A DNA stretch of 64,000 nucleotides, taken from the NCBI RefSeq assembly GCF_030655665.1, contig NZ_JAUSPQ010000010.1, forward strand, positions 1 to 64,000, written 5' to 3'. Source of the stretch: Methanocorpusculum sp. (GTDB lineage Archaea > Halobacteriota > Methanomicrobia > Methanomicrobiales > Methanocorpusculaceae). The translations under genes were made by a program, and so were the position numbers. The notes below the pieces were generated by a model. That model made no database searches. It was given only the letters and a program-made list of their open reading frames with translations, and had not been told where the DNA came from. Of this stretch, positions 8,018 to 45,053 are shown in pieces (the stretch's first letter is position 1; each line of letters begins with the position of its first letter).

Positions 8018-8018
8018 G

Positions 8019-16134: not shown

Positions 16135-17028
16135 TCAGCCCTGATGGGTATTGCTTTCATCCAGCGATCGACCGGACAAGCGGTATTGATGTTCAGATTC
16201 CCTGACGAAAAAAGCCTCATCCGCCATTTTATCCATGATTCGCCGGACACGCACCGGGTCCTCGTTCATCTCCGTTGCAAAAACATCCGGGCTCCCACAT
16301 TTTCGTTCGAGCATTTTTTTCAAAACATTGCCGCGGATCTTCCGGTCTGAGCCTTCGAAGGTCTTCTGTTTCGTGTACTGGCGGCTCCGCTGATTCGGAT
16401 TTTTTACGGATGCCTTCAGTGCCGTTCCAAGATCCATCAAAGCCCAGTACCACTCCCGGGAGTTTGCCGGGAGCATGGCTGAGATGAGCGGAAGAAGCTC
16501 GCAGTCATCAACGATTCCGCCTTCTTCGAAAAAATAATGGATGAATACTCTCCTGATGTTTGTCTCGATGAATACGACCGGTCGGTTGAAGGCAAACGCC
16601 GCGATCGAGCAGGATGTGGCAGGCCCTATTCCCGGAAGCGTCCTGAGGATCATCGGATCATCCGGGATCTTCCCGCCGTACTCATCCACGATAACGCCCG
16701 CAAGTTTTTTGAGGCTGAGAGCACGGCGGTTGTACCCCATCCCCTGCCATGCGGCGAGAAGATCTGCCTGCTCTGCCTTCGCGAGAGCATAGATGTCGGG
16801 AAACGTTTCGATGAACTTCGGATAGATCACCGCGACCCGCGGGACCTGGGTCTGCTGAAGCATAACTTCGGAGACCAGGATCCTGTACGGGTCATCGGTG
16901 TGCCGCCATTCCATGTCATGCCGACCCTTTGCAGCGTAAAACTCCAGAACATGATGCTGAAAATCTGCAATAAGCGAGGGGGTGATCCCCTCTTCCCTAA
17001 ACCGGGTCCGAATCTCGGAGACAAGCAT
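16135..17028 (-). CDS. MutY-like HhH-GPD DNA glycosylase lacking the iron-sulfur cluster
   Basis: 297 residues of the endonuclease III/MutY superfamily, which excise mispaired or damaged bases. SEVMLQQTQVPRV (about residue 52) supplies the conserved catalytic Glu and the MutY-type QQTQV; the helix-hairpin-helix LPGIGPATSCSIAAF follows near residue 130. Two features are unusual. The general-base Asp of E. coli MutY (LDGNVKRV) is Glu here (FIETNIRRV). The four-cysteine motif that binds 4Fe-4S after the GPD region is absent. Clusterless MutY relatives are known, so activity is plausible, but the substrate could differ. The gene begins three bases after the AbrB-PhoU gene. Confidence 0.75.
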   Translation of the reverse strand: MLVSEIRTRFREEGITPSLIADFQHHVLEFYAAKGRHDMEWRHTDDPYRILVSEVMLQQTQVPRVAVIYPKFIETFPDIYALAKAEQADLLAAWQGMGYNRRALSLKKLAGVIVDEYGGKIPDDPMILRTLPGIGPATSCSIAAFAFNRPVVFIETNIRRVFIHYFFEEGGIVDDCELLPLISAMLPANSREWYWALMDLGTALKASVKNPNQRSRQYTKQKTFEGSDRKIRGNVLKKMLERKCGSPDVFATEMNEDPVRVRRIMDKMADEAFFVRESEHQYRLSGRSLDESNTHQG

Positions 17029-27657: not shown

Positions 27658-28623
27658 TCATCTCACCGGGACGGTCCCAAGGATCTCAGCAATTATCTTC
27701 TCGATCGATACTCCGCCGAGTGCCGATTCGCGTTTGAGGATGATGCGGTGAGCGAATGCAAAAGGAGCGATATATTTGACATCGTCGGGAATAACGTAGT
27801 CACGACCATAGATCGCGGCACATGCCATTGCGCTCCGCAGGAGAGCAAGGGATCCACGCGTGCTGATGCCGAGCCTGACATCATTGTGGTGTCTGGTGGC
27901 TTCGACGAGATCGCCAATGTAGGAGAGGATGTCGTCGCTTGCATAGATTGATCTGACCGTCTCCTGCATTTTCAGGATCTCGGTCGGGTCACTGATGAGT
28001 GGGGCATCGAATATGTAGGTATTTAAATCGAGACCGCTGCCCATACCTTTTCTGAGAACGGAGACTTCGTCCTCGACATCCAGGTGTTTGATCCGGTAAC
28101 TGAGGGTGAACCGGTCCTTCTGCGACTCGATGAGGTTGAAAGTACCTTCCATCTCATACGGGTTCTGGGTCGCGATGACAATGAACGGTTCTGGGAGGTG
28201 GATGGTTTTATTGTCGATCGTTACCTGACGTTCGGCGAGGGCTTCAAGGAGAGCACCCTGCGCCTTGGGCGTCATCCGGTTGATCTCGTCAACGAGGAAG
28301 AGATTGGAGAAGACGGGACCTTCCGAGAAGGTGAAGGTATTCTTGTCCTGATGATACTTTTGGACGCCGATAACGTCCATTGGAAGGATATCGACCGCAC
28401 CCTGCAGGCGGCCGAATTTGCCGCCGATGTTCTGCGCAAAGAATTTACACAGCGTGGTCTTTGCAGTTCCCGGGACCCCTTCCATGAGAAGAGCGCCATC
28501 ACTGAGAAATGCAATGGTCAGAAGATCCATCAGGTCGTCATACCCGATGATGCATTGATGCAGTCGTTCCTTCAGCTGTTCATGAAATGTGTGTATGTTA
28601 TTAAGGTTCTGCGCGTCTGTCAT
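27658..28623 (-). CDS. MoxR-family AAA+ ATPase
   Basis: 321 residues. Walker A GVPGTAKTTL, Walker B NLFLVDEINR, sensor region IATQNPYEMEGTFNL, and the C-terminal lid with RGSLALLRSAMACAAI are in order, all MoxR hallmarks. It acts as a chaperone-like ATPase in the cytoplasm. It overlaps the DUF4350 gene by four bases upstream and precedes DUF58. Confidence 0.9.
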   Translation of the reverse strand: MTDAQNLNNIHTFHEQLKERLHQCIIGYDDLMDLLTIAFLSDGALLMEGVPGTAKTTLCKFFAQNIGGKFGRLQGAVDILPMDVIGVQKYHQDKNTFTFSEGPVFSNLFLVDEINRMTPKAQGALLEALAERQVTIDNKTIHLPEPFIVIATQNPYEMEGTFNLIESQKDRFTLSYRIKHLDVEDEVSVLRKGMGSGLDLNTYIFDAPLISDPTEILKMQETVRSIYASDDILSYIGDLVEATRHHNDVRLGISTRGSLALLRSAMACAAIYGRDYVIPDDVKYIAPFAFAHRIILKRESALGGVSIEKIIAEILGTVPVR

Positions 28624-29468
28624 TGATGGAGTCTCCGTATGCCGATCACGGCTGCAAGGATGAAAAGAATGGTTATGAGGATGGTCCCAAGAGCAGGGTA
28701 TCTGTGCATCGTCTGAAGAAGAGGACAGAGTCCGCCGCCAGAGGTCGTTGCAGAGTTGGTCTGGTCAATTATGAGGTCCTCCTCGAGAAGGGCATTGATG
28801 ACCTGCATATTTTCGGTGTTTGTACGCACAAGCATACTGTTGATGAAGACCGAGGGATCAGCAATGACAATGACACGACCATTACCTATATTTTCTGATG
28901 CGATAAGGGAATAAACTTTCAGTGATTCGTTGCTGTCAGGGATGTTGTTTGCATTGGTGTCTATCCATGAGAGATAGGATGTTGCGGCGATGATGTCGCC
29001 GCCGGTGAGGTAGCCGGGGTAGTTGAAAGTGAGTGTCGTGACATTGGATCCAAAAAGGTCACCAACGACCGTCCCTCGGAAAATTCCCATGTCTTTGTAC
29101 TCCATGCTGGTGGACCGGACCTGTTCATTATGGACACGGATGGAACTCGCTATCTGTTCAAGGAAGATGTTGGCATTTCCGCTTTGGTCGGCAATAATGA
29201 CGGTGTTGCCCTGATAGATGTAGTCTGCAAGGCCGGTAAAGTCAGTGCCGGGTGCGATGATCAGGAGCGTGCCGCCCGACTCCGCAGAGCGGAGATCATC
29301 ATAGCTGTAAACAAATTTTTCATCGGCTGCCAGTCCGAAGAAGTCGGAGGTGCCGTTCCAGTTGATGTTGTACCGGCTGTATTCGTCGTCGGTCGTGGCA
29401 AACTGTGCGGTCACTATCAGTCCGGCAACGAGAAGGAGGAGGAGGGCTATGATGACTCGTTTTTTCAT
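28620..29468 (-). CDS. DUF4350-like membrane protein
   Basis: 282 residues. There is an N-terminal signal-anchor (about 5-25) and a C-terminal span (about 255-275). Between is a globular extracytoplasmic domain of the DUF4350 / GATase-like type: YSYDDLRSAESGGTLLIIAPGTDFT and GRVIVIADPSVFINSMLV. Such proteins are regular members of MoxR-DUF58-DUF4129 operons. Overlaps at both ends by four bases. Confidence 0.72.
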   Translation of the reverse strand: MKKRVIIALLLLLVAGLIVTAQFATTDDEYSRYNINWNGTSDFFGLAADEKFVYSYDDLRSAESGGTLLIIAPGTDFTGLADYIYQGNTVIIADQSGNANIFLEQIASSIRVHNEQVRSTSMEYKDMGIFRGTVVGDLFGSNVTTLTFNYPGYLTGGDIIAATSYLSWIDTNANNIPDSNESLKVYSLIASENIGNGRVIVIADPSVFINSMLVRTNTENMQVINALLEEDLIIDQTNSATTSGGGLCPLLQTMHRYPALGTILITILFILAAVIGIRRLHQ

Positions 29469-30970
29469 GCGTTTTCTTTCAGGATCCGGGTCGCAAGCTC
29501 AGTGAGGCGTGCGGTGTCTTCAGGTGTGGAGCGGGGGGAGTAGCGTACCTTTTCGTAGAGGGTGACATACTCAAGGAGCAGGGGGTCCGGATTTTTCTTG
29601 TCAATGAGGTCCCGGGGTGAGAGGGCTTCGCTTTTCATGATGCCGCGATTTTTGGCGATGGCCGATGCAATGAGTTTGTACTGCCCGGCCGGGCCGGCAT
29701 CTGAGGGCAGGCTGACAGGTTGTTGCGGTTCAGCAGGCTTTACCGAAGGTTCAGGTGAACGAACAGGTTCAGGAGCCAGGACGGGTTTTTCCAAAACTGC
29801 CTCAGGTTCTTTCCTGAATGCCGGGACTGCAACGAATTCCTCTTTTTCCCAGTTCATTGGGGAGACCTGGTCTGCCGACCCAGAAGATGTAACGTTCAGC
29901 GGGTCGTTTTTGACGCCGGTACTTTTTTCGCGGCTGCTGCGTTTTTTGATGACGAAGATGCCTGCTCCGATGCCTGCTGCGCAAACGATGACGATGACCA
30001 GAATGATCATACCTGCGCCATTATCTCCTTCAGGAGCCTGCGTCCCGGTTGGGATGATGACCTCAGGTGTCGGGGCCGTTTCCGTTTCGGTCGGCTGGAC
30101 CGGGGTTGCGGTGGCGACGGTCTCTGTCGCGGTCGGCGACTCGGTTGGAATAAGCGTTTCCGGAGCAGGGAGATCAGCTATCTGCACATTCAGCGATTCG
30201 ATTGCTGTTGCGGCGCGGGTTATCTCGGCAGAGATCATAGCGGGATCCCCGCCGCTCTCCAAGGCATCGACCGACGTCTGGAGGCCGGTTATGATGACGG
30301 TGAGGTCGTCGGTGATCGTGAGCGGGACCGCATCGGCGATGAGCTCGTCTCTGATGAGGATAAGTTCATCGATATGCGTTTGAAGCTGGTCACGGGTCAC
30401 GGATAGATCCTGGGCACCTCCAACAAGGGAAGCGGTCGCAGTTTCCAGTGAAGCTGATATATTTGTAAGATCAGTGAGGCTCTGCTCAAGGATGAGGATA
30501 TCGGAGCTGAAGGATTCCTGGTCGTTTTTTGCCCATGCAAGCGTTGAAGCGAGATGATCTTTGACTGCAGTAAGATCGGTATGTGCCGTCTGCAGGGTCG
30601 AAAGAACGGAAGCTTTGTCGGCATCAGGATAGAGAAGCTCGGAACCTGCAGTCTCCAGACTGTTTTTTATCCTGATGAGATCCTGGACATCGGCGGATGC
30701 AAGTGGAGTTCCCGAGAGTGCAGTCTGTGCGGCGTCAAGATCGACCGCGATCGTCAGAATTTCGGCACTTGATGCTGCGGGCGTCCCGGCGATCATAGCC
30801 TTAGCCGTCAAGTTCAGATCATCGGCGACGGCAGAAAGCTGCTCTTCGATGCCGGCATATGGACCGATTCCGGCGGTCACATTCTCAATTGGTTCATCGG
30901 CCATTGCATAACCGCATATCCCTCCCGCGAGGAGAAGTGTCAGGATCAGCAGCATAACTGCAGGTTTCAT
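29465..30970 (-). CDS. Surface-facing protein with coiled-coil ectodomain and DUF4129-like cytoplasmic tail
   Basis: 501 residues. A signal peptide (MKPAVMLLILTLLLAGGICGYAMA) leads a helical, Leu/Ala/Thr-rich ectodomain of ~230 residues, a Pro/Thr-rich spacer (about 275-325), one span (GMIILVIVIVCAAGIGAGIFVI) and a cytoplasmic tail. The tail's last ~75 residues (YKLIASAIAKN, then LSPRDL and YVTLYEKVRYSP) resemble the DUF4129 C-terminal helical domain also seen in the next protein. The repeated leucines suggest coiled coils outside the cell. Confidence 0.65.
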   Translation of the reverse strand: MKPAVMLLILTLLLAGGICGYAMADEPIENVTAGIGPYAGIEEQLSAVADDLNLTAKAMIAGTPAASSAEILTIAVDLDAAQTALSGTPLASADVQDLIRIKNSLETAGSELLYPDADKASVLSTLQTAHTDLTAVKDHLASTLAWAKNDQESFSSDILILEQSLTDLTNISASLETATASLVGGAQDLSVTRDQLQTHIDELILIRDELIADAVPLTITDDLTVIITGLQTSVDALESGGDPAMISAEITRAATAIESLNVQIADLPAPETLIPTESPTATETVATATPVQPTETETAPTPEVIIPTGTQAPEGDNGAGMIILVIVIVCAAGIGAGIFVIKKRSSREKSTGVKNDPLNVTSSGSADQVSPMNWEKEEFVAVPAFRKEPEAVLEKPVLAPEPVRSPEPSVKPAEPQQPVSLPSDAGPAGQYKLIASAIAKNRGIMKSEALSPRDLIDKKNPDPLLLEYVTLYEKVRYSPRSTPEDTARLTELATRILKENA

Positions 30971-31021
30971 ATCGAGCCCCCGCTCATCGGCTCAGGAAGA
31001 TGTGTCAGGATCAGTGTGGAT

Positions 31022-32737
31022 TCATTTTTCATAATAGCCCTCGATTATCTGTTTGGAGAGGATTTCCAGACGCTGTATCTGGTCCGGACCCGCCGAAACA
31101 TTCGCATAATGAAGATACTCATATGTTGTTATAAACTCTTGGATTTTCTCTGCCGGGGAAGGAATCGCTGCTAAGAGTTCTCTGGGGGTGAAGACCGCGA
31201 CGTTTTCGATTTTGGCGACGGCCGCAAGGACGGCAGCGGTCTTTTTGTAGATGCGGCGGAGCCGATCCGGGTCGGTGTCCTCTTTTTTGAAGATGCGGGT
31301 GCGGATTTTTTCAACGGTGCTCGGAGCCGCCGGCTTATTTCCAAGGATCAGGGGCGGAGCTTCGCCGGGAACCGCTTTGGGTTTTCGATTTCTCACAAAG
31401 CGGATGATCAGGACGAGGAAAACACCGCCGGCGACGACGAGAAGGATGTAGTAGATCGTCGGATCTAGGATCATAACAGGATACAGGTCGCTCATGCTCT
31501 CGTCAAGCGGGAACGACGCGTCGTCGAAGACGGCGTAGAAGGCATAGCCTCCGTCGATCAGCTCCGCAGACACGTTCCAGATGCCGTTTGTATTAGTGAT
31601 GCCTGTTCCGATGTTGATGTGATCTTCGGAGTAGACAGTGACGGGTGCTCCGACGACCGGGATGTCGTCTTCGGTTCGAAGAGAACCGTAGAGGGTGAGC
31701 AGGCGGTGTACTTCGCCGGCGGTCTGGTCAGCTTTGAGGATGGTAACGACCGAGGGCTTCGAAAGGATGGTGATGTAGACCGGCTTTGAGGTGATACCGC
31801 CTGACTGAACAGTGACCGCATGGATGCCTTCGGAGATCTGCCCGACGGTGAGTCGTTTAGCATAGCCTCCGGTGGTGTCAGTTGATACAGTCCCCCAGTG
31901 CGTTGTGTCCCAGTAGATGTCAAGGGAGGGGCGGGTATTTCTCGCGATACCTGACACTGTGATGGTGTCGCCGTAGGAGGCGATGCCCGGATCAACGGAG
32001 AGAGTGATGGAACCGGAGGTGTCTGTTGTGGTGCCTGAGGTGTCAGTGATGATAATGTTCCCTTCTGCATCAGTCGTGACGGTGATCTTTCCCGAGGTGG
32101 CAGCGGTGATGACCTGATTGAGCAGCGGTATGGATGCCTGAAGCTGGGTCGCGTCTAATCCATAGTATGCGGCGATCTGCAGCATGATCTCGGCAGACCC
32201 GGCATAGTTCTGAGCAGTTAAGGCGAGTTCATTGTTGATGAGTGTTGACTCGGCTGCGAGCTGATACAGTCCTGCGGTGTTTCCTTCGGATGCATACTGC
32301 TGTTTGAGATCTTCGATCACATCAAGGCGAACCGAGTCTTCCTGGACGATCTGGATGGAGGTGCCGAGGGCGGATGATTCCTTGCGGTACTGATTGATGT
32401 CGGTCTGTGTCAGCTTGATCTTGCCGACGTTGGTGCCGAGCCGGCTGACGGTGTTTTGATACGCGGCGAGATAGCGTGCGGCATACTCGGGGTCATTGAG
32501 ATAGAGCTGGTAGATCGCGTCATAAGAAAGACCTATGATGTCTACCATGAGAGGAAGGATGGTCTCTGCCTCTTCGGTGGTCATGACGGCGATCGTGGAT
32601 GGGTCAGCGTGGTCGGAGGTGTTGGTGTTTCCCTCGGCTGAGTAGAGAAGCGTGCCGCTCCCTGCAAGCAGCACTATCAGCAGGACAGCGGCAATGACGG
32701 CAAGTAATGCGACCGCTGCAGCGGGAGTCGGTTTCAT
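31022..32737 (-). CDS. Large membrane protein with Ig-like ectodomains and DUF4129-like tail
   Basis: 571 residues. The N-terminal span (AAAVALLAVIAAVLLIVLLAG) is followed by a helical region (~60-250), then two beta-rich modules: ITLSVDPGIASYGDTITVSG and a carboxypeptidase-regulatory-like module with LRTEDDIPVVGAPVTVYSED. A second span (IYYILLVVAGGVFLVLIIRF) and a tail ending LEILSKQIIEGYYEK follow; the tail matches DUF4129 (FTPRELLAAI, YEYLHYA). The true start is 32737, where the ATG overlaps the stop of the 88-residue gene; the open frame upstream of it is a shadow. Confidence 0.7.
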   Translation of the reverse strand: MKPTPAAAVALLAVIAAVLLIVLLAGSGTLLYSAEGNTNTSDHADPSTIAVMTTEEAETILPLMVDIIGLSYDAIYQLYLNDPEYAARYLAAYQNTVSRLGTNVGKIKLTQTDINQYRKESSALGTSIQIVQEDSVRLDVIEDLKQQYASEGNTAGLYQLAAESTLINNELALTAQNYAGSAEIMLQIAAYYGLDATQLQASIPLLNQVITAATSGKITVTTDAEGNIIITDTSGTTTDTSGSITLSVDPGIASYGDTITVSGIARNTRPSLDIYWDTTHWGTVSTDTTGGYAKRLTVGQISEGIHAVTVQSGGITSKPVYITILSKPSVVTILKADQTAGEVHRLLTLYGSLRTEDDIPVVGAPVTVYSEDHINIGTGITNTNGIWNVSAELIDGGYAFYAVFDDASFPLDESMSDLYPVMILDPTIYYILLVVAGGVFLVLIIRFVRNRKPKAVPGEAPPLILGNKPAAPSTVEKIRTRIFKKEDTDPDRLRRIYKKTAAVLAAVAKIENVAVFTPRELLAAIPSPAEKIQEFITTYEYLHYANVSAGPDQIQRLEILSKQIIEGYYEK

Positions 32738-33000
32738 TTTGCAATGATCTCCACGATTTTGATGATGATGATGACTGCAAAGATGCCGACACCGGCGATG
32801 CCGATCAGGCGCTGCCAGCGTGCGCTTTTGGGCCGCAGTGTCGTTACCACAAGGAATTCGGTTATGATCAAAAAGCCGATGAGCCAGAGAACGAAGAAGA
32901 TCTCGATATTGATGGTCCGGGCGAGGATCATGATCGCAACAACTGTGCCCATCCATGCAAGGAGGAGGAGCGCTGCGGTCTGAGTCTTCGCGGGAGCCAT
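32734..33000 (-). CDS. Small three-span membrane protein, first gene of the MoxR-DUF58 operon
   Basis: 88 residues with three hydrophobic helices (about 8-25, 33-54, 66-85) and a basic RPKSARWQR loop before the last. No family recognised. It leads the operon and overlaps the next gene by four bases. A decayed copy of this gene, with stop codons in frame, lies at 37451-37610 beside the SIR2 gene. Confidence 0.65.
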   Translation of the reverse strand: MAPAKTQTAALLLLAWMGTVVAIMILARTINIEIFFVLWLIGFLIITEFLVVTTLRPKSARWQRLIGIAGVGIFAVIIIIKIVEIIAK

Positions 33001-33039
33001 GGGTAGTTAAGTGGTTTTGTTTTGGAGAGGGTAATAGGT

Positions 33040-33310
33040 TTTGGTTCGCGGGTCGGACGCGAAGCGGCCGACCTTAGCTGAGGCGGGCTGACCCGTAGGG
33101 GCGGCCTCAGCTGAGCAAGGCTTTGCCTTGCGACCAAACCATAGGTTTGCGATTAAGCGAGTGAAACGAAGCGGAGAGCCAGCCAAAGGTTGGCGAACAT
33201 CCGAGGGCTGTTAGCCCGACGCGGTGGAGTATCCTATTTCCGAGACCCATACACGTTTCCAGGTAGTTCATCTTCATCTGCAGCAGAACATACCATATCT
33301 GAAATGAGTG
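33040..33310. repeat. Mosaic of hairpin repeats upstream of the MoxR operon
   Basis: The stretch between 33001 and 33494 has no gene. It is built of short hairpins: CGC-gaa-GCG (33058-33066), GCAAGG/CCTTGC (33115-33131), CAAACC/GGTTTG (about 33134-33148), GCCAGCC-aaa-GGTTGGC (about 33181-33197) and GGGCT-gtt-AGCCC (about 33203-33215). The right part (gacgcggtggagtatcctatttc, 33219 on) matches the inner element of the composite copies at 5.4 and 39.4 kb. Together it reads as an accretion of small repeat modules. Confidence 0.65.
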
Positions 33311-33434
33311 ATTGCCATGAGAATGAAGACCGAGCAGGGAGTGAGAATGGGAGATAAAAAAAAGAGTTGGTTTGGTGGGTTTAGAGGGATTTAGTTTAGA
33401 GTGGACACATGAGATGGGTAATAGATGTTCGATA

Positions 33435-33494
33435 CCTCCACTTTCAGGTCACCGAGCACAAACCCAAAGTGGAGGGGGGCCGGTTTCCCGGCCC
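33435..33494 (-). terminator. Strong hairpins directly after the RHH gene stop
   Basis: On the minus strand GGGCCGG-GAAA-CCGGCCC (33494-33477) starts immediately after the stop codon and is capped by a GNRA tetraloop. Just beyond, CCTCCACTTT (33435-33444) and AAAGTGGAGG (33466-33475) form a perfect 10-bp inverted repeat. AAAGTG can instead pair with CACTTT at 33496-33501, extending the first hairpin, so the two structures compete. Terminator or 3' stability element. Confidence 0.55.
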
Positions 33495-33743
33495 TCACTT
33501 TCTTTCCATTTTCCGGCGCTCTTCCTCCAGTTCCTCTTCATGCCATTTGTTCATTTCCCGGTTGATGATCCGGCGCTGGAGTTCGGCGGGTTTGATGCCC
33601 TCTTTTTTTGCACGGAGATAGAACCACTGCTTCTTTTTCATCGGGAGCCGTGTGGTGATCTGTCCATTGTATTCGACGGGCGTTTCCATGATGACCTGTT
33701 TCATTTTGAGACAGATCCGGGTACTTGGTTCTTCATTGACCAT
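33495..33743 (-). CDS. Putative small ribbon-helix-helix (RHH) DNA-binding protein
   Basis: 82 residues, highly charged. The middle fits an RHH fold: strand ITTRLP, helix MKKKQWFYLRAKKEG, turn IKP, helix AELQRRIINREMNKW, then an acidic-basic tail (HEEELEEERRKMERK). I start at 33743 because AAGGA lies about seven bases before that ATG; an in-frame ATG 57 bases upstream falls in the structured leader. Its long leader and its 3' flank are full of hairpins. No partner gene adjoins it. The RHH assignment rests on pattern only. Confidence 0.5.
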   Translation of the reverse strand: MVNEEPSTRICLKMKQVIMETPVEYNGQITTRLPMKKKQWFYLRAKKEGIKPAELQRRIINREMNKWHEEELEEERRKMERK

Positions 33744-33922
33744 GTTATGTCCTTGTGGTGTTCTCTTTGGAACAATGCCTGCGTAAGGCAGGTTATTCAA
33801 TGTCGATTCATGCCGATTGACCCAGCGGCATGCCTTTTTTGTCGAGAGAGGGACAGAGTACCCTCTTCGTGTTTTCCGTTGACCGGCACGATTCCCGCGC
33901 CGGCATGTTCATTCAGGGAATG

Positions 33923-34040
33923 AAAAAAGGCTTCAGGGTTCACCCGTGGCAGAGGGATTAGTATGCGTGATACCTGACTCCATGCTCCTAGCAGCTTGCC
34001 GTCCCGCAGGACTCGTGCTCCGGGCTAGCCCCTGCCTTTT
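33923..34040 (-). ncRNA. Candidate structured RNA of about 115 nt
   Basis: On the minus strand a closing stem GGCAGGGG (34036-34029) pairs with CCTCTGCC (33955-33948), seven Watson-Crick pairs and one G-U; on the plus strand that pair would be A-C, so minus is favoured. Inside are CTAGC/GCTAG enclosing GTCC-tgcg-GGAC, and GTAT/ATAC. After the stem come GGGT-ga-ACCC and a run of six T (33928-33923), like a terminator. A TATA-like AAGTATT (34067-34061) sits 25-30 bases before the 5' end. It matches no RNA class I recognise. Confidence 0.5.
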
Positions 34041-34060
34041 TTCATTTACCTGATGTTGTT

Positions 34061-34067
34061 AATACTT
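34061..34067 (-). promoter_or_regulatory. Candidate TATA box for the structured RNA
   Basis: AAGTATT on the minus strand, 25-31 bases upstream of the predicted RNA 5' end at about 34036-34040. This is the expected archaeal spacing, but the match to a TATA consensus is modest. Confidence 0.3.
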
Positions 34068-34496
34068 AGTTGGTTTTTTAGATATTTAATGGTTATTTTT
34101 TGCGTATTACGATAATTTTATGAGTATTTGTCTGTTTTAGTGTTGAGATTCGTTCTAAGAGGTTATAAACCCCAGACCGCGCGGTGCGATAATGCCCCCT
34201 GGTGTGTTTGAGAAGGGGTGCTCAGTGAATGGGAAGGGGGTTAAGCATTGTTGCAAATCTAGTTTTGGTATTTAAGATTTTTGGTTTTTTGGGAGTGGTG
34301 TTTTTTGGGGGGTCATTTCGTGTTGGAAGGGGGAGCGTGGTGGACGCGCAAGAGGTATGACGAGAAAAAGAGCGGGTCGAGGGGTGATGTGGCGAAGCGG
34401 TAGTGATCATGGGCGATGCGGAGTGGATGTTCTTGGTGGGTGAGGAGGTGGGATGCATGTGGATACAAAATACATCTCATATCTCCCAATCCTATT

Positions 34497-34770
34497 TTTG
34501 ATACTGGGGTGCGGAGCGGCCCGCGGTGGAGTATCCTATTTGTTGGGGCCCCTATACGTTTCAAAGTAGTTTGTCAGAAGCGAAGAATTCAGATAGAACT
34601 TCCTTTCAAAATACATCCCTAATTACCTATTATATTTTCTTGATCTGGGTTGAACCCGGGTGCGGGGAGGTGACAGCAGATTGGACACGGAGCGGCCCAT
34701 AGTGGAAATATCCTGTTTTCGGAGTTCATTGAGAGGTTAAGTTGGTTCATCTGTGGTTAAATATCCCTAC
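34497..34770. repeat. Degenerate copies of the inner composite element
   Basis: The stretch 34053-34496 shows nothing I can support. From 34497 tggggtgcggagcggcccgcggtggagtatcct resembles the arms of the inner element at 5.3 and 39.4 kb, and a second, weaker half follows at about 34656-34740 (gggtgcgggga, cggagcggcc, tggaaatatcc). These are eroded relics next to the SIR2 gene. Confidence 0.5.
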
Positions 34771-34822
34771 TGATAAGAACTGTGCGTAAAGTATATGGTT
34801 TTTAATCTCATCTATTTTGATT

Positions 34823-37321
34823 ATGAGTGATATTGAATTGAAAACATTATATGCTGAAATTCGGCAAAAAATATGTCCTGAGAATTATGCTACCCGGACA
34901 GAAAACCCAATCGTATTTTTGGTTGGTGCAGGGATTTCCGTTAATCCTCCCTGTAATTTATCTATCTTTCCTCAGATGGAGTGTATCTCTAAGCTCTCAT
35001 CACTGCAGCAAATTAGTGGTGATCTTATCATTAACCGGGTAAGACCGGAATTCTTTTTTCAGATTCTGCAACATCATCAAGGTCAAGAGCGGGGGTTTCT
35101 GCCCTTACGCGTACTGGATACACATTATGCAAAACAGAGGGGTTGTATTATCTGCCCAAATGCGATTCATTATTTCCTTGCACATATGCTTTCACTGGGA
35201 CATATTGTTGTCTCCACTAATTTTGATGGGCTTATTGAAGATGCATATTATAATTTAAATGGGAAAGCGTTAATAAATGATAGCTGTCTCATATATGATA
35301 ATGAATTAGACAGGATAAGCAAAAAACCTCAAGATGCAAATGGGTGTCTAATTAAAATTCATGGCTCGTTTTATCGTCCGGATGGTGCAGATACAAAAGA
35401 TTCAATCGTCACTTTGCTTTCCCAGCATATGAGTAATGCCGTAGAACACAAGATCAATGTCATCCATGTTCTCAGAAAATATGATTGGATCGTTTTAGGG
35501 CACAGTCTAAGGGATGAGTATGATATATACAAGGTTCTTTCTTCAACACCGGATCAGTTTACAAACGGGATATACTGGATAAAGCATAATTCTGATCTGA
35601 ATTTTTCAGGGATGATCACAAAAGGGGCATCGGTATTTTTATCGAAATGGAATGCACAACCACCTGCCACTCAGTCCTGGAAAGATGTGTCTGCTAATAA
35701 TATGTATAAGATTCTCCATGCGTATGGAGATAAAAGTGTTTTGCTGGAAATCAATACAATGAAATTTATAGAAAATTTATGGAAATGTATTGGTCTTCAG
35801 TCCGATTCTAATTGTACGAATCTGAGCGATGATAACCAAACAATGTTTGCTCCCTGCATATCTCACCCGGACTCACACCGATTATGTATGGATATGAACC
35901 AAGGTTGTGATACGAGGCTGAATATTCAGAATTATACGAAGTCTATCATTGATGAGTGGTATTCATCCTTAACTAAAGTTGAAGAATTGAATATTTCTGC
36001 AGAAATACTACAATATTGTAACAAATCTGAATATGATATTGCGGCATGCAATCTTCAAAAGAGAGCAATAAATTTGGAGTTCATAGACTCGGATCAAAGA
36101 TTACGTAACGCTAGACTGGATATATGTGATGCGAAATGTGCGTATAAGTGCGGGCAGCGACATTTCCAGCCATCTCTTATTAATGAAGGTATAGAGAAAG
36201 CAAAAAATTCTTTAGACGTATTTATTAAACAGGGAAACTTGGATGAATCTATATATACACGAAGTGTCCTTGCGAATCTCTATCGATTGAATGGTAACTT
36301 AGATCTGGCATTTAAACAGGAATCTATTGCAATTCAGGAATGTATTCAGTTGCTGAATGTAAAACCTGAGACTGTTGACGATCTTGCTGAATCACTGAGG
36401 CATCTTGCACTTACGGTTATGACTGCACTTCCGGATATTCCTCCTTTAACAGATTTATCACAAAAGAAGGAATTAACCGGATTGCTGGAGGCCTGCAGTA
36501 ATCTTTGTTTACTGAGTCTTACCATCTATGGAATGAGGGGAAACCAGAGGGGAGAACGCGGCTCGAATCAGACCAGTAATGTTCTGGGATTGATCTATCT
36601 TCGGATGGGGGAGTATCAGAAAGCAAATGACTGTTTTAGTATACATTGCAACGATGCAAATGCATCCAGATTTATCAGAGAAAGTCACCAGGGTTATCGG
36701 AATTTGGGATTGAGCCAGTTGGCTTTGGCGCAGGAAATGACCTCTGACAAGCAGCTTCATTGTAAATACTGTAATGAGGCAATATCAAGTTTTACCAACT
36801 GTCTTCGTTGTCTGGATATTCGTCCTGAAAATGCTGATATCCAGTTCCAATGGAAGGATAAATCTCTTCAACTGAATTCTCTGTACAATTATTTCAAGTG
36901 TCTTGTGCTATGTTGCGGTCCTAAAGATGTGATTGCAAGAGTTTCATCCTGGCTTAAAGAGTATACGGATGAGGTGAAACTTCAACAGATTATTCCAAAA
37001 GATACCTGGCATGAGCAGTGCAGGCTTCTCTCAATTCTGTGTTTGGCTGAAGATGATGAATCAACGGCACAATATTACGCGGAAAAGGTGTCTGAAATTT
37101 ATCGTTTAAAATGGGATGAAATGTTGAAACACAAGTTCGGCAGACAAAATTATCAGGAGAGTCGAAAATTAATCCAACTGCGGAATCTGACGGGTTTTGA
37201 TTACGAATCATTGAAAAACGTTGACGTTGTCTGGTCTGGGTCTTTTGATGTCTCTAAGATAACAACTGAGCTTAATGATGTCTACAGGAAAGTTTCAGAT
37301 TATTTAGATACAATACGTTAA
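34823..37321 (+). CDS. SIR2-domain protein with helical-repeat (TPR-like) C-terminus; candidate defence gene
   Basis: 832 residues. The N-terminal ~280 residues are a SIR2-type NAD-binding domain: GAGIS at 35-39, STNFD at 131-135 (with the catalytic Asn), IHGS at 179-182 (with the catalytic His), and GHSLRDEY at about 226. The remaining ~550 residues are helix-rich, with paired-helix stretches from about 420 to 760 that look like TPR repeats (LGLIYLRMGEYQKANDCFSIH). SIR2 domains of this branch often act as NADases in anti-phage systems such as Thoeris ThsA, DSR1/2 and SIR2-HerA. Here it stands alone among repeat relics and is AT-rich. Start at 34823; TATA-like tatatgg at 34791-34797 implies a leaderless message. 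Confidence 0.8.
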   Translation: MSDIELKTLYAEIRQKICPENYATRTENPIVFLVGAGISVNPPCNLSIFPQMECISKLSSLQQISGDLIINRVRPEFFFQILQHHQGQERGFLPLRVLDTHYAKQRGCIICPNAIHYFLAHMLSLGHIVVSTNFDGLIEDAYYNLNGKALINDSCLIYDNELDRISKKPQDANGCLIKIHGSFYRPDGADTKDSIVTLLSQHMSNAVEHKINVIHVLRKYDWIVLGHSLRDEYDIYKVLSSTPDQFTNGIYWIKHNSDLNFSGMITKGASVFLSKWNAQPPATQSWKDVSANNMYKILHAYGDKSVLLEINTMKFIENLWKCIGLQSDSNCTNLSDDNQTMFAPCISHPDSHRLCMDMNQGCDTRLNIQNYTKSIIDEWYSSLTKVEELNISAEILQYCNKSEYDIAACNLQKRAINLEFIDSDQRLRNARLDICDAKCAYKCGQRHFQPSLINEGIEKAKNSLDVFIKQGNLDESIYTRSVLANLYRLNGNLDLAFKQESIAIQECIQLLNVKPETVDDLAESLRHLALTVMTALPDIPPLTDLSQKKELTGLLEACSNLCLLSLTIYGMRGNQRGERGSNQTSNVLGLIYLRMGEYQKANDCFSIHCNDANASRFIRESHQGYRNLGLSQLALAQEMTSDKQLHCKYCNEAISSFTNCLRCLDIRPENADIQFQWKDKSLQLNSLYNYFKCLVLCCGPKDVIARVSSWLKEYTDEVKLQQIIPKDTWHEQCRLLSILCLAEDDESTAQYYAEKVSEIYRLKWDEMLKHKFGRQNYQESRKLIQLRNLTGFDYESLKNVDVVWSGSFDVSKITTELNDVYRKVSDYLDTIR

Positions 37322-37450
37322 TCGTGATACGCTTGTATTGTATAGGAACGATATTTTGATAGGCCGATGACGGGGAAGATGATGTTATAGGTTTCGGATG
37401 AGGCGGCTTCACCATGATCAACATAAGTGGATTATGTTATTCTGCCGGCG

Positions 37451-37610
37451 TGCGCTTTTTGATCAAAGTATCCTTTCGACATAGAACGTGATTATGATCA
37501 GAAAACTGATGAGCCAGAACAGAAAGAATATCCCGATATTTTTGATTCATACAAGGTTCAAGATTGCGGCTACTGTTCTCATCTATGCGTGGAAACGGAC
37601 CGCGGACATG
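37451..37610 (-). pseudogene. Decayed copy of the 88-residue membrane protein gene (32734-33000)
   Basis: The DNA aligns along its length with 32821-32980. Translated in the matching frame it keeps M-x-T-V-x-A-I, then NIGIFFLFWLISFLIIITF against NIEIFFVLWLIGFLIITEF, but has a TAG in place of a Trp codon and a TGA in place of Arg. Only the middle of the gene remains. It shows that part of the operon head was duplicated next to the SIR2 gene and then decayed. Confidence 0.7.
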
Positions 37611-38145: not shown

Positions 38146-39132
38146 ATGAAACTACGGATGATTAATTGTGCGCTTCTTAAGAGGATACTACGTTATAACC
38201 ATATTTCAGTCTCCGAAGCAATAATCGCACTAATCATCTGTATTGTGAGTTCAATCTTATTAAGTATAATTTCATCGATAATTAGTTTATTAATGGAGAA
38301 TAAATCTGAAAAATTAGTTATATTCATATTGATTTCGATTATAATTTTCTTACTACTTGCTCTTTATGTTCTGAAACTTGGAAAATTAGGTGAGCCTATA
38401 TTATACATAGATAATACCCCCATTATCTCAACTCTTAGTTATTTAGTTTTTAGTAAGGAACGAAAAGACTTCAATACTTTTGCAATTTCTGATCTTACGA
38501 TTACTTTTAACTTGGATAAACCATTCTCTGTAAATAATAACCGACAGTATAAAGAGTCCATAACCTACCAGTTTGCCGGTAGGAATAATTCGTCTAAATC
38601 TATAGATGAGATGATATTTTATTTGATCTCTCCTTTATGTGAAGGATTTGATACCTTAGATTATAAAATCAGTAAGCCAACTAATTCATTTATACCGGAG
38701 CGTGTTCCCGCTTCCTATACTATAATTACAATGAAGAAAACAATCTTGAAAGTAGGCATTCCATTTAATGATGTTTTGAAGTCTGGAGAGTCATTAGCTC
38801 CTACCGAGACATTTAAGTTCGATTTTATTCGAGAAGAGACAACAGACAAACCAAGTTTCAATGGGTATTTATACTGCATTGATCCAAAGAATTACTCAAA
38901 ACACACTGAAAATTTGACGATTATTATCCACATATATGACGAAAAATATGAATATACTCCAGTTAATATATATGAATTTGATCGTTTTGATGGAAGACAT
39001 AAACTTCTTAAACAAGGGACACTGCATTGGGACGCCGATAATGCATGTTGTTCATTTGTGTATCAGCCCCACATGATAAATCCATATGTATTTTACGGAT
39101 TTATGGTGAAAAAACAGCATTCTATTATATAA
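38146..39132 (+). CDS. Uncharacterised membrane-anchored protein
   Basis: 328 residues (324 from the second ATG). Two N-terminal spans (about 23-48 and 55-78) are followed by a ~240-residue soluble domain with mixed strands and no recognised motif; polar residues such as Asn, Tyr and Lys are frequent. It is AT-rich like the SIR2 gene and lies between a transposase remnant and a composite mobile element, so it belongs to the accessory region. It might be a partner of the SIR2 gene, but 820 bases of relics separate them. Confidence 0.6.
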   Translation: MKLRMINCALLKRILRYNHISVSEAIIALIICIVSSILLSIISSIISLLMENKSEKLVIFILISIIIFLLLALYVLKLGKLGEPILYIDNTPIISTLSYLVFSKERKDFNTFAISDLTITFNLDKPFSVNNNRQYKESITYQFAGRNNSSKSIDEMIFYLISPLCEGFDTLDYKISKPTNSFIPERVPASYTIITMKKTILKVGIPFNDVLKSGESLAPTETFKFDFIREETTDKPSFNGYLYCIDPKNYSKHTENLTIIIHIYDEKYEYTPVNIYEFDRFDGRHKLLKQGTLHWDADNACCSFVYQPHMINPYVFYGFMVKKQHSII

Positions 39133-39769: not shown

Positions 39770-39860
39770 CTCGTGAATATTTTGCGACAGAGGAGCCAAG
39801 TGAAACGTTAACATGATCCTTGGACATAAGATATTTCCTCCGCGGCTGCAATTCGCCCTT
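39770..39860. repeat. Partial inner-element relic upstream of the flippase gene
   Basis: The sequence gaaacgttaacatgatccttggacataagatatttcctccgcgg (about 39800-39844) repeats part of the composite element just to its left (39630-39668). The remaining 39861-40050 holds no gene that I can support. Confidence 0.45.
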
Positions 39861-40050
39861 GCAACCACCCAAAGCTGCTCGGATGTTGCGACCCGACCAG
39901 CCCCCGTTACTGAGCGCGTGCCGGAAAAAGAGGCGGGCTTTTTGTCAGGGAGGCAGGAGGGGGGATCGCGGCGGGGAGCTATGGTGCAGAGGAACGGGTT
40001 TTTTTTCGCAGAGTCCATCCGGCAGTATTTATGTGTCGTGAAGGCAGATT

Positions 40051-40060
40051 AGTATAAAAG
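40051..40060 (+). promoter_or_regulatory. TATA box of the flippase gene
   Basis: AGTATAAAAG centred about 30 bases before the ATG at 40085, giving an expected transcript start within a few bases of the start codon. Confidence 0.5.
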
Positions 40061-40084
40061 AGAATGGGCAGGTTTGTGGAATAG

Positions 40085-41659
40085 ATGACGGAAGAACAGG
40101 GTGCGACGCTGGATATTAAGTTTCAACAGAGGTTTTCGAAGAATCTGCTTTCCAATGTGGTGTATTTTGTTCTGAATGTTATTATTGGGCTTGCTCTGGT
40201 CCCGTTTTTTTTGGACACGTTGGGACCTGCTGCATATGGGTTGATTCCGCTGGCGACATCGCTCACGAGTTATATCACTATTTTCACAGATGCTGTAAAT
40301 GGCTCTATTTCACGATATCTTACGATTGATTTACAGCGATCTGATTTTGCCCGCGCAAATGAGACTTACAACACATCATTGTTTGGTATGCTGTTAATTG
40401 TGCTCATGTGTGTGCCAATTTCCATCCTAATCGCCATCTCATCTCCCTCTTTTTTTGATATAGGAGATTCTGCAGTAGTTGATGTGGTTCTATTATTTTC
40501 TCTGATTTTTATTTCCGTCCTTCTAAGAGCATTCGGCAGCACATTCATGACAACATTGTTTGCCTACAATCGGATGGACTTAAGAAATATAGTTAATATC
40601 GTGTACCAGTTGATTCCGGTCATATTAATAGTCAGCATATTTTTGATATTTGGTCCTTCTTTGGTAGCAGTGGGTACATCATATCTATTGGCGGCGGTAA
40701 TTTCAGTATTTGTATCTTATGTATTTTCAAGAAAGACATGCCCACAGTTAAAAACCAATCATCATTATTTTTCAAAGTTGCGTTTTAAGGAAATGGGGGG
40801 GGTGACATTCTGGTTAATTATTAATAGATTCGGGGGTTTGCTCGTTACAAACGTTTCACTGATATTTGTAAATATATTATATGGTGTTGTCGCCGAAACC
40901 GGTTATTCTCTTGTTTTAACATTTAACATATTGTTGGTATCAATAGGGAGCCTTATTACTAGTATACTTACGCCAATGATATATTCTTATTATAGTAAGG
41001 GAGATATGTCGGGTCTAATAACCTTTTCTAAATTTTCAATAAAAATAGTTGGTCTGCTCATTGCTCTTCCTGTTGGTCTTGTATGTATTTTCTCATCTCA
41101 ATTTCTTACTCTCTGGGTAGGTAGTGAATATACATATTTAGTTCCATTAATGTGGATTCTAATTATTCCATCACTTCTTGAAGTACAGGTTGCTGCGATC
41201 GGTGGAGTTAATATTGCATGTCTTCGGGTTCGGTTTCCAGCGATTTATGCGGTATTATGTGGATTTTTTAATATAGGTCTTATTTTGCTCTTTAATTTCT
41301 TGTTTGATATTGGATATTATAATGTCGCTTTATCTTATCTTATTTCAAGAGTTATACTTGGAATTGCAATATATACACCAATATACATAGCTTATATCCT
41401 GGGAGCTCCACATTTTACGTTTATAAAATCTATGCTTTATGGATATATATCATTAGCAGGGCTATTAGTTGTGGGTATAATATTCACATCATTCATATCT
41501 GTAGATTCACTATTAATGCTAATAATTGCAGGAACTGGATTTTCAATTATTTATCTTCTGATTATTCTTAAACTCATTCTTAAAAAGAATGAGAGAGATC
41601 TAATTAGATCATGTATTCCAAAGACTATTGGTAAATTGATACCAGAGTGGATATTGTAA
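40085..41659 (+). CDS. Wzx-type oligosaccharide flippase (MOP superfamily)
   Basis: 524 residues with about 14 hydrophobic spans. The N-terminal LLSNVVYFVLNVIIGLALVPFFLDTLGPAAYGLIPLA is the typical first-helix pattern of polysaccharide-synthesis flippases. These proteins move lipid-linked oligosaccharides across the membrane for assembly of surface glycans or exopolysaccharide. Base composition shifts from GC-moderate at the 5' end to AT-rich later. It faces the nonulosonate operon tail-to-tail and is its likely export partner. Confidence 0.82.
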   Translation: MTEEQGATLDIKFQQRFSKNLLSNVVYFVLNVIIGLALVPFFLDTLGPAAYGLIPLATSLTSYITIFTDAVNGSISRYLTIDLQRSDFARANETYNTSLFGMLLIVLMCVPISILIAISSPSFFDIGDSAVVDVVLLFSLIFISVLLRAFGSTFMTTLFAYNRMDLRNIVNIVYQLIPVILIVSIFLIFGPSLVAVGTSYLLAAVISVFVSYVFSRKTCPQLKTNHHYFSKLRFKEMGGVTFWLIINRFGGLLVTNVSLIFVNILYGVVAETGYSLVLTFNILLVSIGSLITSILTPMIYSYYSKGDMSGLITFSKFSIKIVGLLIALPVGLVCIFSSQFLTLWVGSEYTYLVPLMWILIIPSLLEVQVAAIGGVNIACLRVRFPAIYAVLCGFFNIGLILLFNFLFDIGYYNVALSYLISRVILGIAIYTPIYIAYILGAPHFTFIKSMLYGYISLAGLLVVGIIFTSFISVDSLLMLIIAGTGFSIIYLLIILKLILKKNERDLIRSCIPKTIGKLIPEWIL

Positions 41660-41746
41660 CCAATTCTTCAATGTCTTTACTATAAAACGTAGAGTATTTC
41701 CCTTTTTTTTGAGTTGATACTTCCATGCATTTCATAATCTGACATA

Positions 41747-41869
41747 ATGATATTTACAGATGTAGATTTCTTCCGTACCCAGCAAACTCGTTACACTATC
41801 CAAAGAACTCTTAAGAAAAATGATTGCGGCGAATATCTACTTAAAGATCCAGTGTGGAATCATAAATAA
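41747..41869 (+). other. Possible 40-residue open frame or coding relic
   Basis: Between the flippase gene and the cytidylyltransferase remnant a short frame starts ATGATATTTACAGATG and ends with TAA, encoding MIFTDVDFFRTQQTRYTI followed by a charged tail. It has a protein-like composition but no ribosome site and no recognised relative. It may be the end of a lost gene. Confidence 0.2.
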
Positions 41870-41884
41870 TAATTAATCAAAAAT

Positions 41885-42313
41885 CTATTTTTTCATCAAA
41901 AACTCCGCCATCTTTAAGTCCATATCACAATCAATATCCACAGAAACGTCTCTCCCCATCACATATGCATAGCACCGCTCCCGATAAAAGTCCCCCCACT
42001 CCCGATAATACCTAATCAATGCAATATACATAGCTCCATTGATTCGGTAATACGTATCCAGAGGCTGTCGCAGCTTATCCTTTGCCTCTGGTTTAATGAA
42101 TCCAACCATAGAACCATCAATCGGCAGCATTCCGCACAACAATGGAGAATGCTCCATTTCAGTTACACCAACTACAGCACAAGCCTTCTTTTGAGTGAAG
42201 ATATCATAAGCATTCATAATATCTTCTGCAGTCCGCAACGGAGATGTCGGCTGAAGAAGAGCAAATGTATCAAATGTTTTACCGCCTGCTTCATACCAAT
42301 TCAAATGTAACAA
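41885..42313 (-). pseudogene. Truncated CMP-nonulosonate cytidylyltransferase
   Basis: About 142 residues of the C-terminal part remain: LLQPTSPLRTAEDI, the second conserved block of the acylneuraminate cytidylyltransferases, then YRINGAMYIA and VDIDCDMDLKMAEFLM. The N-terminal CTP-binding block (AR-x-GSKG-x-KN) is gone; only a TTG could start the frame, and stops interrupt the sequence just upstream. A full-length relative follows upstream at 42351-43124, so this is a dead second copy or a trimmed operon end. Confidence 0.7.
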
Positions 42314-42350
42314 ATATTTCCTAAAATAGGGGTTTAAATTGATGTTTACA

Positions 42351-43124
42351 TCATAAAGTATCTATATTTTGATATAGCATCGACAAATCTGCCTTTTTAT
42401 CTATGAATATTTTCATAAGAACTTCCATCAGCTCATAATCCTCTTCACTGTCAATATCAAGAACTGCGGTATCCTCCATCATGATAGCTGTACATCTCCC
42501 ATCAAATAATTTATCTGAATTTGAACGAATAAGATACTCCCCATCATAAGCATAGATTGATGCATTCATATCATAAACCACTGGGGCCTGCTGTCTTGAA
42601 GTTAGTCCCTGGTTCATGACCAACTCATACCCCCCAGTGACTGGAATTTTTTTGACCTGGTTAAAGTATGGATTACGTCTGGCACTTGTTATTGAAAAAA
42701 CAACGTCAAAATCTGGTGAATTTTTCTTCATTTCATAAATATTCACAATATCCTGAAGTCTACGAATAGGTGATGTGATGTCAAGATCAATAACCATGTC
42801 ATGCTCAACACTATAGTGTTTATTACAACGAAGAAGTGCATCTCTAATTACAGCTATTTTCCCAATAGTATCGCCACTGAGTTCTGCCGACCTATCAACT
42901 GTGAAAACAGGAAACGCCTTTTGGGAGGTAATCAGACCAAGAAGATCTTGGCTGTCTGAACTTGCACATACATGAATCGTATCCACACCTTTATTTTCTT
43001 TGATAAATAAATCGATTGCCGAAAGAGTATAGTAAACTAATGGTTTACCAAGCAGATTTTTTAAATTTTTATTTTTAACGCCTTTCGATCCGGCACGTCC
43101 ACAGACAGTAAATAAAATGTTCAT
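42351..43124 (-). CDS. CMP-nonulosonate (legionaminate/neuraminate-type) cytidylyltransferase
   Basis: 257 residues. The CTP-binding block RAGSKGVKNKNLKNL is at residues 10-24 and DITSPIRRLQDI is the second block. It joins CMP to a nine-carbon acidic sugar, the activating step before transfer. With the legB/legC-type genes of the operon, CMP-legionaminic acid is the likeliest product (LegF role). Its start overlaps the oxidoreductase gene by four bases. Confidence 0.8.
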   Translation of the reverse strand: MNILFTVCGRAGSKGVKNKNLKNLLGKPLVYYTLSAIDLFIKENKGVDTIHVCASSDSQDLLGLITSQKAFPVFTVDRSAELSGDTIGKIAVIRDALLRCNKHYSVEHDMVIDLDITSPIRRLQDIVNIYEMKKNSPDFDVVFSITSARRNPYFNQVKKIPVTGGYELVMNQGLTSRQQAPVVYDMNASIYAYDGEYLIRSNSDKLFDGRCTAIMMEDTAVLDIDSEEDYELMEVLMKIFIDKKADLSMLYQNIDTL

Positions 43125-44062
43125 TCCAACTCACCTAAAGCTAACTTTAATGTATCAAATGCATTATAAATATCATTTTGATTTTTTGTCTCTTTTCCGG
43201 TACATAAATCAAGGAAGTAGTTCATTTCAGCGATATATGGGTCATCATTTTTAGTAACTGGATACGGAATGATTTCAATACCATTATCAAAACTAACAGT
43301 TTGACTAATGAAATCAACTTTCAAGAGCCCATTCTTGGTGAATAATTCCAGTTGGCGTGTTGCCCTCCTTCCAAAATAATCAAGATGCAGTTCAACAATT
43401 TTGTCAGAATATTCGGCAATATAAACTGCAATATCATCACTATCTATGTTCAACTCTGATTTTGTTCCCTTCAAATATGATAGTTTGTTTGGCATTCCAA
43501 ATAGATATTTCAGATAATCCCATTCATGAATCAGATCAAGACTAACACCACCACCCATTTCCTTATGAGCACTGTAGTTCACCTTATAATCAATATTTTT
43601 GCGCCACTCCGGGAGGTATGAGGAGCAAATTGCTCTGGCTGAGTAGACTTTATTCTTTTTTACAAAATCTTGGAGTATAGGGAACACACCGTTATACCGT
43701 AGTGGAGCTGCAACATAGTATACAGAATCCGTATTAAGCAGCAATGATTTTAAATCATTTTTCGTATCCATGAACAAAGGTTTTTCAATGAATATATGTT
43801 TTGTATGAGAGAGAATCTTGTTTAATGTCTCATAATGTTTGTTCGTCGGGTTTGTAATAAACACAATATCGTAATCATCATTAAGATTCTCATAAGAGGT
43901 AAATTCTTTATCAATTATTTTTCCAATATCATCTGAAAGAGGTCTGTGTGTAGTGCGAAGCGTATGAATATCTGAGAGTATTTTTCTCTCTGAGAGGATC
44001 TGCACTAAATTATGAAGATGTCTGGTACCAATAGACCCAAGACCTATAAAGCAGATCTTCAT
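43121..44062 (-). CDS. Gfo/Idh/MocA-family oxidoreductase, second of a pair
   Basis: 313 residues. Rossmann motif GLGSIGTRHLHNL near the N-terminus, IEKP (EKP motif) at about residue 100, and a C-terminal alpha/beta domain with GGGVSLDLIHEWDYLKYLFG, the typical catalytic-helix region. It uses NAD(P) on a sugar or sugar derivative. I start at 44062, five bases past the previous stop, with AGG upstream, rather than 30 bases earlier inside that gene. Role in the nonulosonate pathway is not established; it may modify the sugar or a side chain. Confidence 0.75.
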   Translation of the reverse strand: MKICFIGLGSIGTRHLHNLVQILSERKILSDIHTLRTTHRPLSDDIGKIIDKEFTSYENLNDDYDIVFITNPTNKHYETLNKILSHTKHIFIEKPLFMDTKNDLKSLLLNTDSVYYVAAPLRYNGVFPILQDFVKKNKVYSARAICSSYLPEWRKNIDYKVNYSAHKEMGGGVSLDLIHEWDYLKYLFGMPNKLSYLKGTKSELNIDSDDIAVYIAEYSDKIVELHLDYFGRRATRQLELFTKNGLLKVDFISQTVSFDNGIEIIPYPVTKNDDPYIAEMNYFLDLCTGKETKNQNDIYNAFDTLKLALGELE

Positions 44063-44066
44063 ATCG

Positions 44067-45053
44067 TTACAACCTGCCTTCAATTTTATCAATAAGGTTC
44101 AAGGTCCGTATATCATCATTCAAAGAGTATAAGGGGTTCCCAACTCCAGACAATAAATCAAAAAAACAAACAATTTCAGCAAGATATGCATCCTCAATTA
44201 TATTAGATGCATAATTCTGATTATGTTCAAACGAATCATATAATTCAATAGATTCAAATGATTTGGTATCTATGTTATATCTCTTAAGACCCGAAGGTGT
44301 TCCATCCCAAAATAAATGTAGGTTTTCTCCGACAATCTCCAGTAAAGAAATGGCTTTTCTTGATACCACATCTATTATCATTACACCTCTATTTCCAGAT
44401 TCATGTTCCAAGGTCACCAGATATGAATCAGGATACGTAATATCCAGATTACTGATTTTCTTTTTTGAAGTATAACCTACGGATACCGACCTGCCAAAAC
44501 AATTCAATATCCACGGCAGCTGAATTGCAAATATTTCACGGCAACCGTTCGTTTCCTTCTCACCAACAAAGAATTTTTTGTAACTTTCCCATGGATGCCA
44601 GTCAGGAAGATACTGACCAACATGATACATATATTGGAGAGGTAATTTTTCTGAATGCACAATCTCACATATTTTTTGAATCTCTTTACGGTACAATAAC
44701 GTAGAAGACATGAATATATGCAAATTATGTTGTGCAGCTAATTCACGTAATTCAGTATATCCTGTGTTAATCAAGTTCAGTTCAGTAAATACGTTGATGC
44801 TGTTCTCAAGTAATTCTTTGATTACGGTATGGTGCGTAGCAGGAGGGGTGCAGACGAAGGCAGCGTCAACGTTCGTTTCGGCTAAAGCATTTAAAAGAGA
44901 GTCAAAACATTTGATGTTATATGCCTCCGATATCTCGTTACGGCGCTTTTCTGAAAACTCAATCCCAAATATAGATATGTTCGGATAATTTTTTTGTACG
45001 AGACGTAATCTTCTTTGACCCATTGAACCTAAACCAACAATTAATATGTTCAT
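44067..45053 (-). CDS. Gfo/Idh/MocA-family oxidoreductase, first of a pair
   Basis: 328 residues with Rossmann motif GLGSMGQRRLRLV at residues 7-19 and AAFVCTPPATHH in the cofactor domain. The EKP position reads TELN (NVFTELNLI), a departure from the canonical Glu-Lys-Pro that could mean altered chemistry. The C-terminal domain has NGCREIFAIQLPWILNCFG. It overlaps the upstream epimerase gene by four bases. Substrate unknown. Confidence 0.72.
   Translation of the reverse strand: MNILIVGLGSMGQRRLRLVQKNYPNISIFGIEFSEKRRNEISEAYNIKCFDSLLNALAETNVDAAFVCTPPATHHTVIKELLENSINVFTELNLINTGYTELRELAAQHNLHIFMSSTLLYRKEIQKICEIVHSEKLPLQYMYHVGQYLPDWHPWESYKKFFVGEKETNGCREIFAIQLPWILNCFGRSVSVGYTSKKKISNLDITYPDSYLVTLEHESGNRGVMIIDVVSRKAISLLEIVGENLHLFWDGTPSGLKRYNIDTKSFESIELYDSFEHNQNYASNIIEDAYLAEIVCFFDLLSGVGNPLYSLNDDIRTLNLIDKIEGRL

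Follow-up and report, generated by a model that had tools for sequence, protein, structure and literature searches.

Abortive-infection systems that deplete NAD+ have been studied chiefly in bacteria. One of them is DSR2 (defence-associated sirtuin 2) of Bacillus subtilis, a single large protein of ~1005 residues in which an N-terminal SIR2_2 NADase with an Asn/His pair, triggered by the phage tail tube protein, is joined to a C-terminal helical sensor. The catalytic pair is N133/H171 in DSR2 and N113/H153 in ThsA, and mutations of N133 and H171 abolish the NAD+ cleavage by DSR2 (PMC11087589). In Avs5 (AVAST type 5) a SIR2 effector is combined with a STAND NTPase and C-terminal repeats including TPRs; this TPR-containing sensor responds to a phage protein and triggers NAD+ hydrolysis, which also requires the Asn, and the position of the His may be taken by an Asn (PMC12931631). 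Immune sirtuins belong to the SIR2_2/SIRim class, in which some members have further domains attached, TPR among them (PMC12700824).

The gene described here, SIR2-TPR, belongs to the methane-producing archaeon Methanocorpusculum and lies in a stretch of 64,000 nucleotides (the window). Its features are the following:

34788..34798, plus strand: TATA-like AT-rich stretch AAAGTATATGG, ~25-35 nt upstream of the ATG, found by eye
34823..37321, plus strand: SIR2-TPR gene, open reading frame of 832 residues plus stop, with a start that agrees with the N-termini of its relatives (MS...)
34823..35797, plus strand: SIR2_2 NADase domain (predicted activity), residues 1-325, from Pfam, alignment and model
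35801..35917, plus strand: disordered linker, residues 327-365, pLDDT below 50
35918..37183, plus strand: TPR-type superhelix, residues 366-787, from the AF2 model and Foldseek
36485..36742, plus strand: most conserved TPR stretch, residues 555-640, a candidate ligand or switch surface

The frame is single and unbroken from the ATG at 34823, where the Methanocorpusculum relatives likewise begin with MS, to the stop codon at 37319-37321. It is the one proposed in an initial annotation of this DNA, and it is not a chance frame, because full-length homologues with ~40% identity exist in other genomes and the Pfam match to SIR2_2 (37.5 bits, 3e-9) exceeds the cut-off of 24.5 bits. The stretch AAAGTATATGG is a possible archaeal promoter, in which case the leader would be short or absent; a scan for bacterial promoters and terminators, whose models are ill-suited to archaea, gave signals near the shuffle level. 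As had been noted before, the composition departs from that of the housekeeping genes (GC3 of 0.35 versus 0.57-0.65). However, this is weak evidence by itself, and low GC was rejected as proof of foreign origin, since the polysaccharide genes that follow it have an equally high AT content.

Within the N-terminal domain all three motifs quoted in the initial annotation are present, namely GAGIS at residues 35-39, STNFD at 131-135 and IHGS at 179-182. In an alignment of 22 SIR2 domains the residues G35, G37, S39, T132, N133, F134, D135, K178, H180, G181, G226 and D231 are invariant (22/22), so that the GxG, TNxD and HG motifs of the active site are kept together with their Asn and His. The site is thus intact, as had been claimed, and a loss of the Asn or His among homologues, which the annotation had named as counter-evidence, was found in none of these domains. 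N133 and H180 correspond to N133/H171 of DSR2 and N113/H153 of ThsA. By inspection, the segment from TNFD to GHS lacks a CxxC zinc module, which is expected of SIR2_2, unlike deacylases (PMC12700824).

A model of the isolated domain (pLDDT 85.4, pTM 0.89) was compared with the PDB, where SPARSA, DSR2, SeThsA and FAM118B rank first, ahead of canonical sirtuins, of which one, yeast Hst2, is found among the best 50 matches. A profile search with the 22 domains as query gave the same picture (SPARSA 6.5e-22, DSR2 2.8e-15, KomC 1.6e-12, ThsA 7e-12, FAM118B 3e-7; canonical sirtuins 1e-6 or weaker), and an NCBIfam search of the protein returned no meaningful match. The comparison with DSR2 and ThsA that had been recommended therefore finds the domain matching both by profile and by fold, and we infer that it is an NAD+ glycohydrolase.

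The C-terminal repeats, described from the letters as TPR-type, are weak by sequence (best Pfam TPR match 0.001-0.003) and were confirmed by structure. In the AF2 model of the whole protein (16-sequence alignment, pLDDT 84.8, pTM 0.85), residues 366-787 form a long run of paired helices followed by one further C-terminal helix, and the repeat type can be called TPR because Foldseek matches the whole model to the TPRs of LGN, Pins and kinesin light chain in the PDB. A viral fold search with the full-length model gave generic TPR-type matches only. Among three divergent members, 42% of the positions in residues 555-640 are invariant, compared with 32% in the SIR2 domain and 22% in the whole TPR part, and this stretch is rich in conserved Asn, Arg, Gln and Glu, for example N582, Q583, R616, R619 and E620. 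A conservation exceeding that of the SIR2 domain hints at a conserved ligand site or an internal switch rather than the fast-evolving face of a sensor.

With DSR2 the protein shares its overall plan, but it is shorter (832 versus ~1005 residues), the profile and fold matches are restricted to the SIR2 domain with no whole-length homology, and the best structural matches of its arm are LGN-type TPRs, not DSR2. It resembles Avs5 in combining a SIR2 domain with C-terminal TPRs, but the disordered linker stands where Avs5 has its STAND NTPase; no STAND domain was matched by Pfam and no Walker A motif occurs anywhere in the protein. SPARSA, in which SIR2-APAZ is paired with a short prokaryotic Argonaute, provides the nearest solved SIR2 domain by both sequence and fold; however, SIR2-TPR has neither an APAZ domain nor an adjoining Argonaute gene, and PADLOC, which was also run on 55 other open reading frames, detected no Argonaute in the window. 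In contrast to ThsA of Thoeris, the C-terminus is TPR and not SLOG, and no ThsB was found in the window. Unlike in Nezha (SIR2-HerA), there is no adjacent HerA ATPase, and no open reading frame of the window matches a HerA model. FAM118A/B share the Pfam domain SIR2_2 and the fold with SIR2-TPR, but the vertebrate protein has ~350 residues and no TPR arm.

No PADLOC family spans the whole protein. The sole low-E matches were to Aga_SIR2 (1.4e-7, residues 116-257), which was rejected as a family assignment because the match is restricted to the SIR2 domain. The protein is not an Avs5, SPARSA, Thoeris, Nezha or DSR2, since it lacks a Walker A motif, APAZ, SLOG or a HerA partner, and membership of a named defence family, the other counter-evidence that had been listed, was thus not found. 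Nevertheless, it belongs to the SIR2_2/SIRim class. Of the original proposal of an undescribed single-gene defence system, the single-gene unit has stood but the word undescribed has to be toned down: SIR2_2 proteins with appended TPR are already known (PMC12700824), which makes SIR2-TPR an unnamed variant and not a new kind. The term SIR2-TPR was not found in the literature searched, whose coverage excluded most subscription papers.

Full-length relatives occur in 4/232 genomes of the class, three from Methanocorpusculum (the window's own included, 3/25 genomes of the genus) and one from Methanolinea. Apart from the window protein these are M. parvum SIG11 and isolate RGIG1678, a near-identical pair, and Methanolinea UBA477, with ~37-42% identity to it over the full length; the distribution is rare and patchy. 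Querying GTDB contigs with the alignment yielded 22 loci, while viral contigs gave no match; scans for close relatives with the single protein found nothing in either set, and tblastn found no relative in phage and plasmid collections. Long TPR arrays are also joined to SIR2_2 in more distant proteins of the Asgard groups Lokiarchaeota and Sigynarchaeota (L023-L027). These proteins keep the same invariant residues, but the identity is ~23-31% in the SIR2 part only and the TPR arrays show no detectable similarity. The genome of the window also encodes a second SIR2_2 protein (L068, G000:C4:55425-55808, 2.1e-22), whose first listed start gives a frame of 264 residues in which the GxG region of the N-terminus is missing; it may be a decayed copy.

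A survey of the neighbourhoods of homologues, which had been suggested as a check, places the relatives within two independent defence islands. At L020 the gene directly follows the one for a DUF3644 protein (PADLOC candidate PDC-S19, 1.2e-153), and a Fic protein is encoded farther upstream. At L021 and L022, which are near-identical and therefore count as one context, a DUF4062-STAND-TPR protein and a caspase are found upstream, and PDC-M50A and an AriA-like ATPase with a companion of 187 residues downstream. In bacteria, DUF4062 has recently been reported as a TIR-like NADase domain that acts against phages (PMC13174449). The DUF4062-STAND-TPR gene adjoins that of the caspase (C14) in Methanocorpusculum also at L013 and L014 (G015, G021), and the two may represent a defence pair of an archaeal TIR-like NADase and a protease. 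When all neighbours were compared against each other, SIR2-TPR was the sole gene common to the window, L020 and L021/L022. The absence of a partner that was suspected from the window alone thus extends to the relatives, and SIR2-TPR behaves as a single-gene unit.

In the window itself the gene is surrounded by relics and repeats, as the initial annotation had described, and by an orphan frame:

33213..34354, no strand assigned: repeat-rich segment upstream of SIR2-TPR, with counterparts of 79-94% identity in three congeners (L064-L066)
37440..37583, minus strand: relic, an N-terminal fragment of the gene at 31025-32956 (42% identity)
38146..39132, plus strand: orphan open reading frame of 328 residues with two strong N-terminal TM segments, AT-rich

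Counterparts of the repeat-rich segment lie beside other island genes in 2/3 congeners. Two dispersed families of short repeats (34164-34241 and 34508-34571) have roughly ten or more partial copies each in the contigs of the genome and are also abundant in the islands of congeners. An IS1634-family transposase at 53270-54714 is probably inactive, as it is divided into two open reading frames. No homologue of the orphan frame is present among 246 further genomes from the phylum, and a comparison with a neighbour of equal length at L020 showed the two to be unrelated.

G018 and G013 share the left flank (28454-33052), with identities of 80% and 72-86%, respectively. Past it, G018 carries a Schlafen AlbA_2 protein, and G013 carries HepT/MNT, a zeta-like kinase, AbiEi (2.4e-64), AbiEii (2.3e-103) and RhuM/PDC-S05 (7.6e-136). 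In G019 the right flank (39839-46188) recurs with 89-93% identity, and upstream of it lie AbiEi, HepT/MNT and RhuM-type genes, assigned from near-identical protein starts. SIR2-TPR occupies a variable island junction; it is not a mapped insertion, since collinearity with G013 is incomplete at this junction (the flippase is inverted and only 46% identical). The AbiEi, HepT/MNT and RhuM proteins of L064 and L065, in regions matching the two flanks of the window, appear near-identical, which suggests recent movement of the island. None of the immediate neighbours of SIR2-TPR scores as a defence gene with PADLOC. Elsewhere in the window, the PADLOC matches that were traced, to IetA/TRIP13 at 9851-11167 and to a type II nicking-endonuclease model at 16138-17028, were judged cross-hits to housekeeping genes, the first for an AAA ATPase, probably a proteasome-activating one, and the second for an endonuclease-type protein, probably endonuclease IV.

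The intact NAD-site residues, the fold, the architecture, the rarity, the defence islands of the relatives and the lack of a common partner together make it likely, with good confidence on our part, that SIR2-TPR is a self-contained antiviral effector, an NADase of abortive infection. Akin to known bacterial enzymes but of a design that has no name, it would probably act as a suicide enzyme set off by infection. We infer the following course by analogy with DSR2 and Avs5. The SIR2_2 domain would be kept inactive in the uninfected cell; the TPR superhelix would detect a cue of infection, and the arm with its bound cue would free or assemble the SIR2 domains, which would then hydrolyse NAD+ and so protect the population. 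More tentatively, and somewhat doubtfully, the TPR arm alone might use residues 555-640 to sense a conserved ligand and trigger NAD+ hydrolysis with no NTPase and no second messenger; SIR2-TPR would then be a stand-alone immune protein that is conserved within Methanomicrobia and has cousins of like architecture among the Asgard archaea. Against an antiviral role speak the lack of relatives on phages, plasmids and viral contigs, the limitation to two independent defence contexts, the lack of defence scores among the immediate neighbours in the window and the conservation of residues 555-640, which is unlike that of a fast-evolving sensor of viral proteins.

Alternatively, the protein might be a cell-suicide or toxin-type regulator whose residues 555-640 respond to an endogenous ligand, such as a stress signal or a nucleotide, instead of a viral protein. 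The stretch keeps its invariant positions and its many polar and charged residues although the members are ~40% identical overall, and the structural matches include Rap, a TPR protein that binds peptides; yet the neighbourhoods are islands of the antiviral type and the conserved surface may equally be an intramolecular switch, so we consider such a regulator unlikely. It is rather improbable that SIR2-TPR is the arm of a multi-gene system, together with the DUF4062-STAND-TPR protein and the caspase at L021/L022 and with the orphan membrane protein in the window. The three genes at L021/L022 do lie on one strand (5280-8372, 8502-9452 and 10001-12469 of L021), and the membrane frame, a possible partner that counts against a stand-alone protein, follows SIR2-TPR on the same strand at a distance of 824 bp. 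However, the window, L020 and L021 have no other gene in common, ~550 bp lie between the caspase and SIR2-TPR, searches of the genome of the window without positive control detected no DUF4062-STAND protein and no caspase of this kind, and the membrane frame is without homologues. A metabolic or regulatory sirtuin, that is, a protein deacylase with a substrate-recruiting arm, would fit the sirtuin fold, and TPRs commonly recruit proteins, but the missing zinc-binding cysteines, the Pfam assignment to SIR2_2 and not SIR2, a profile and fold far closer to defence NADases and the rare, patchy distribution make this highly improbable.

If SIR2-TPR is indeed a self-contained antiviral NADase, an archaeal defence of one gene and without an NTPase would be a very simple coupling of sensing to execution and a new minimal route from sensing to NAD+ depletion. 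It would also offer a tractable entry to the immunity of methanogens, and the Asgard proteins of like architecture may be relevant to how SIR2-type immune proteins of eukaryotes, such as FAM118, arose.
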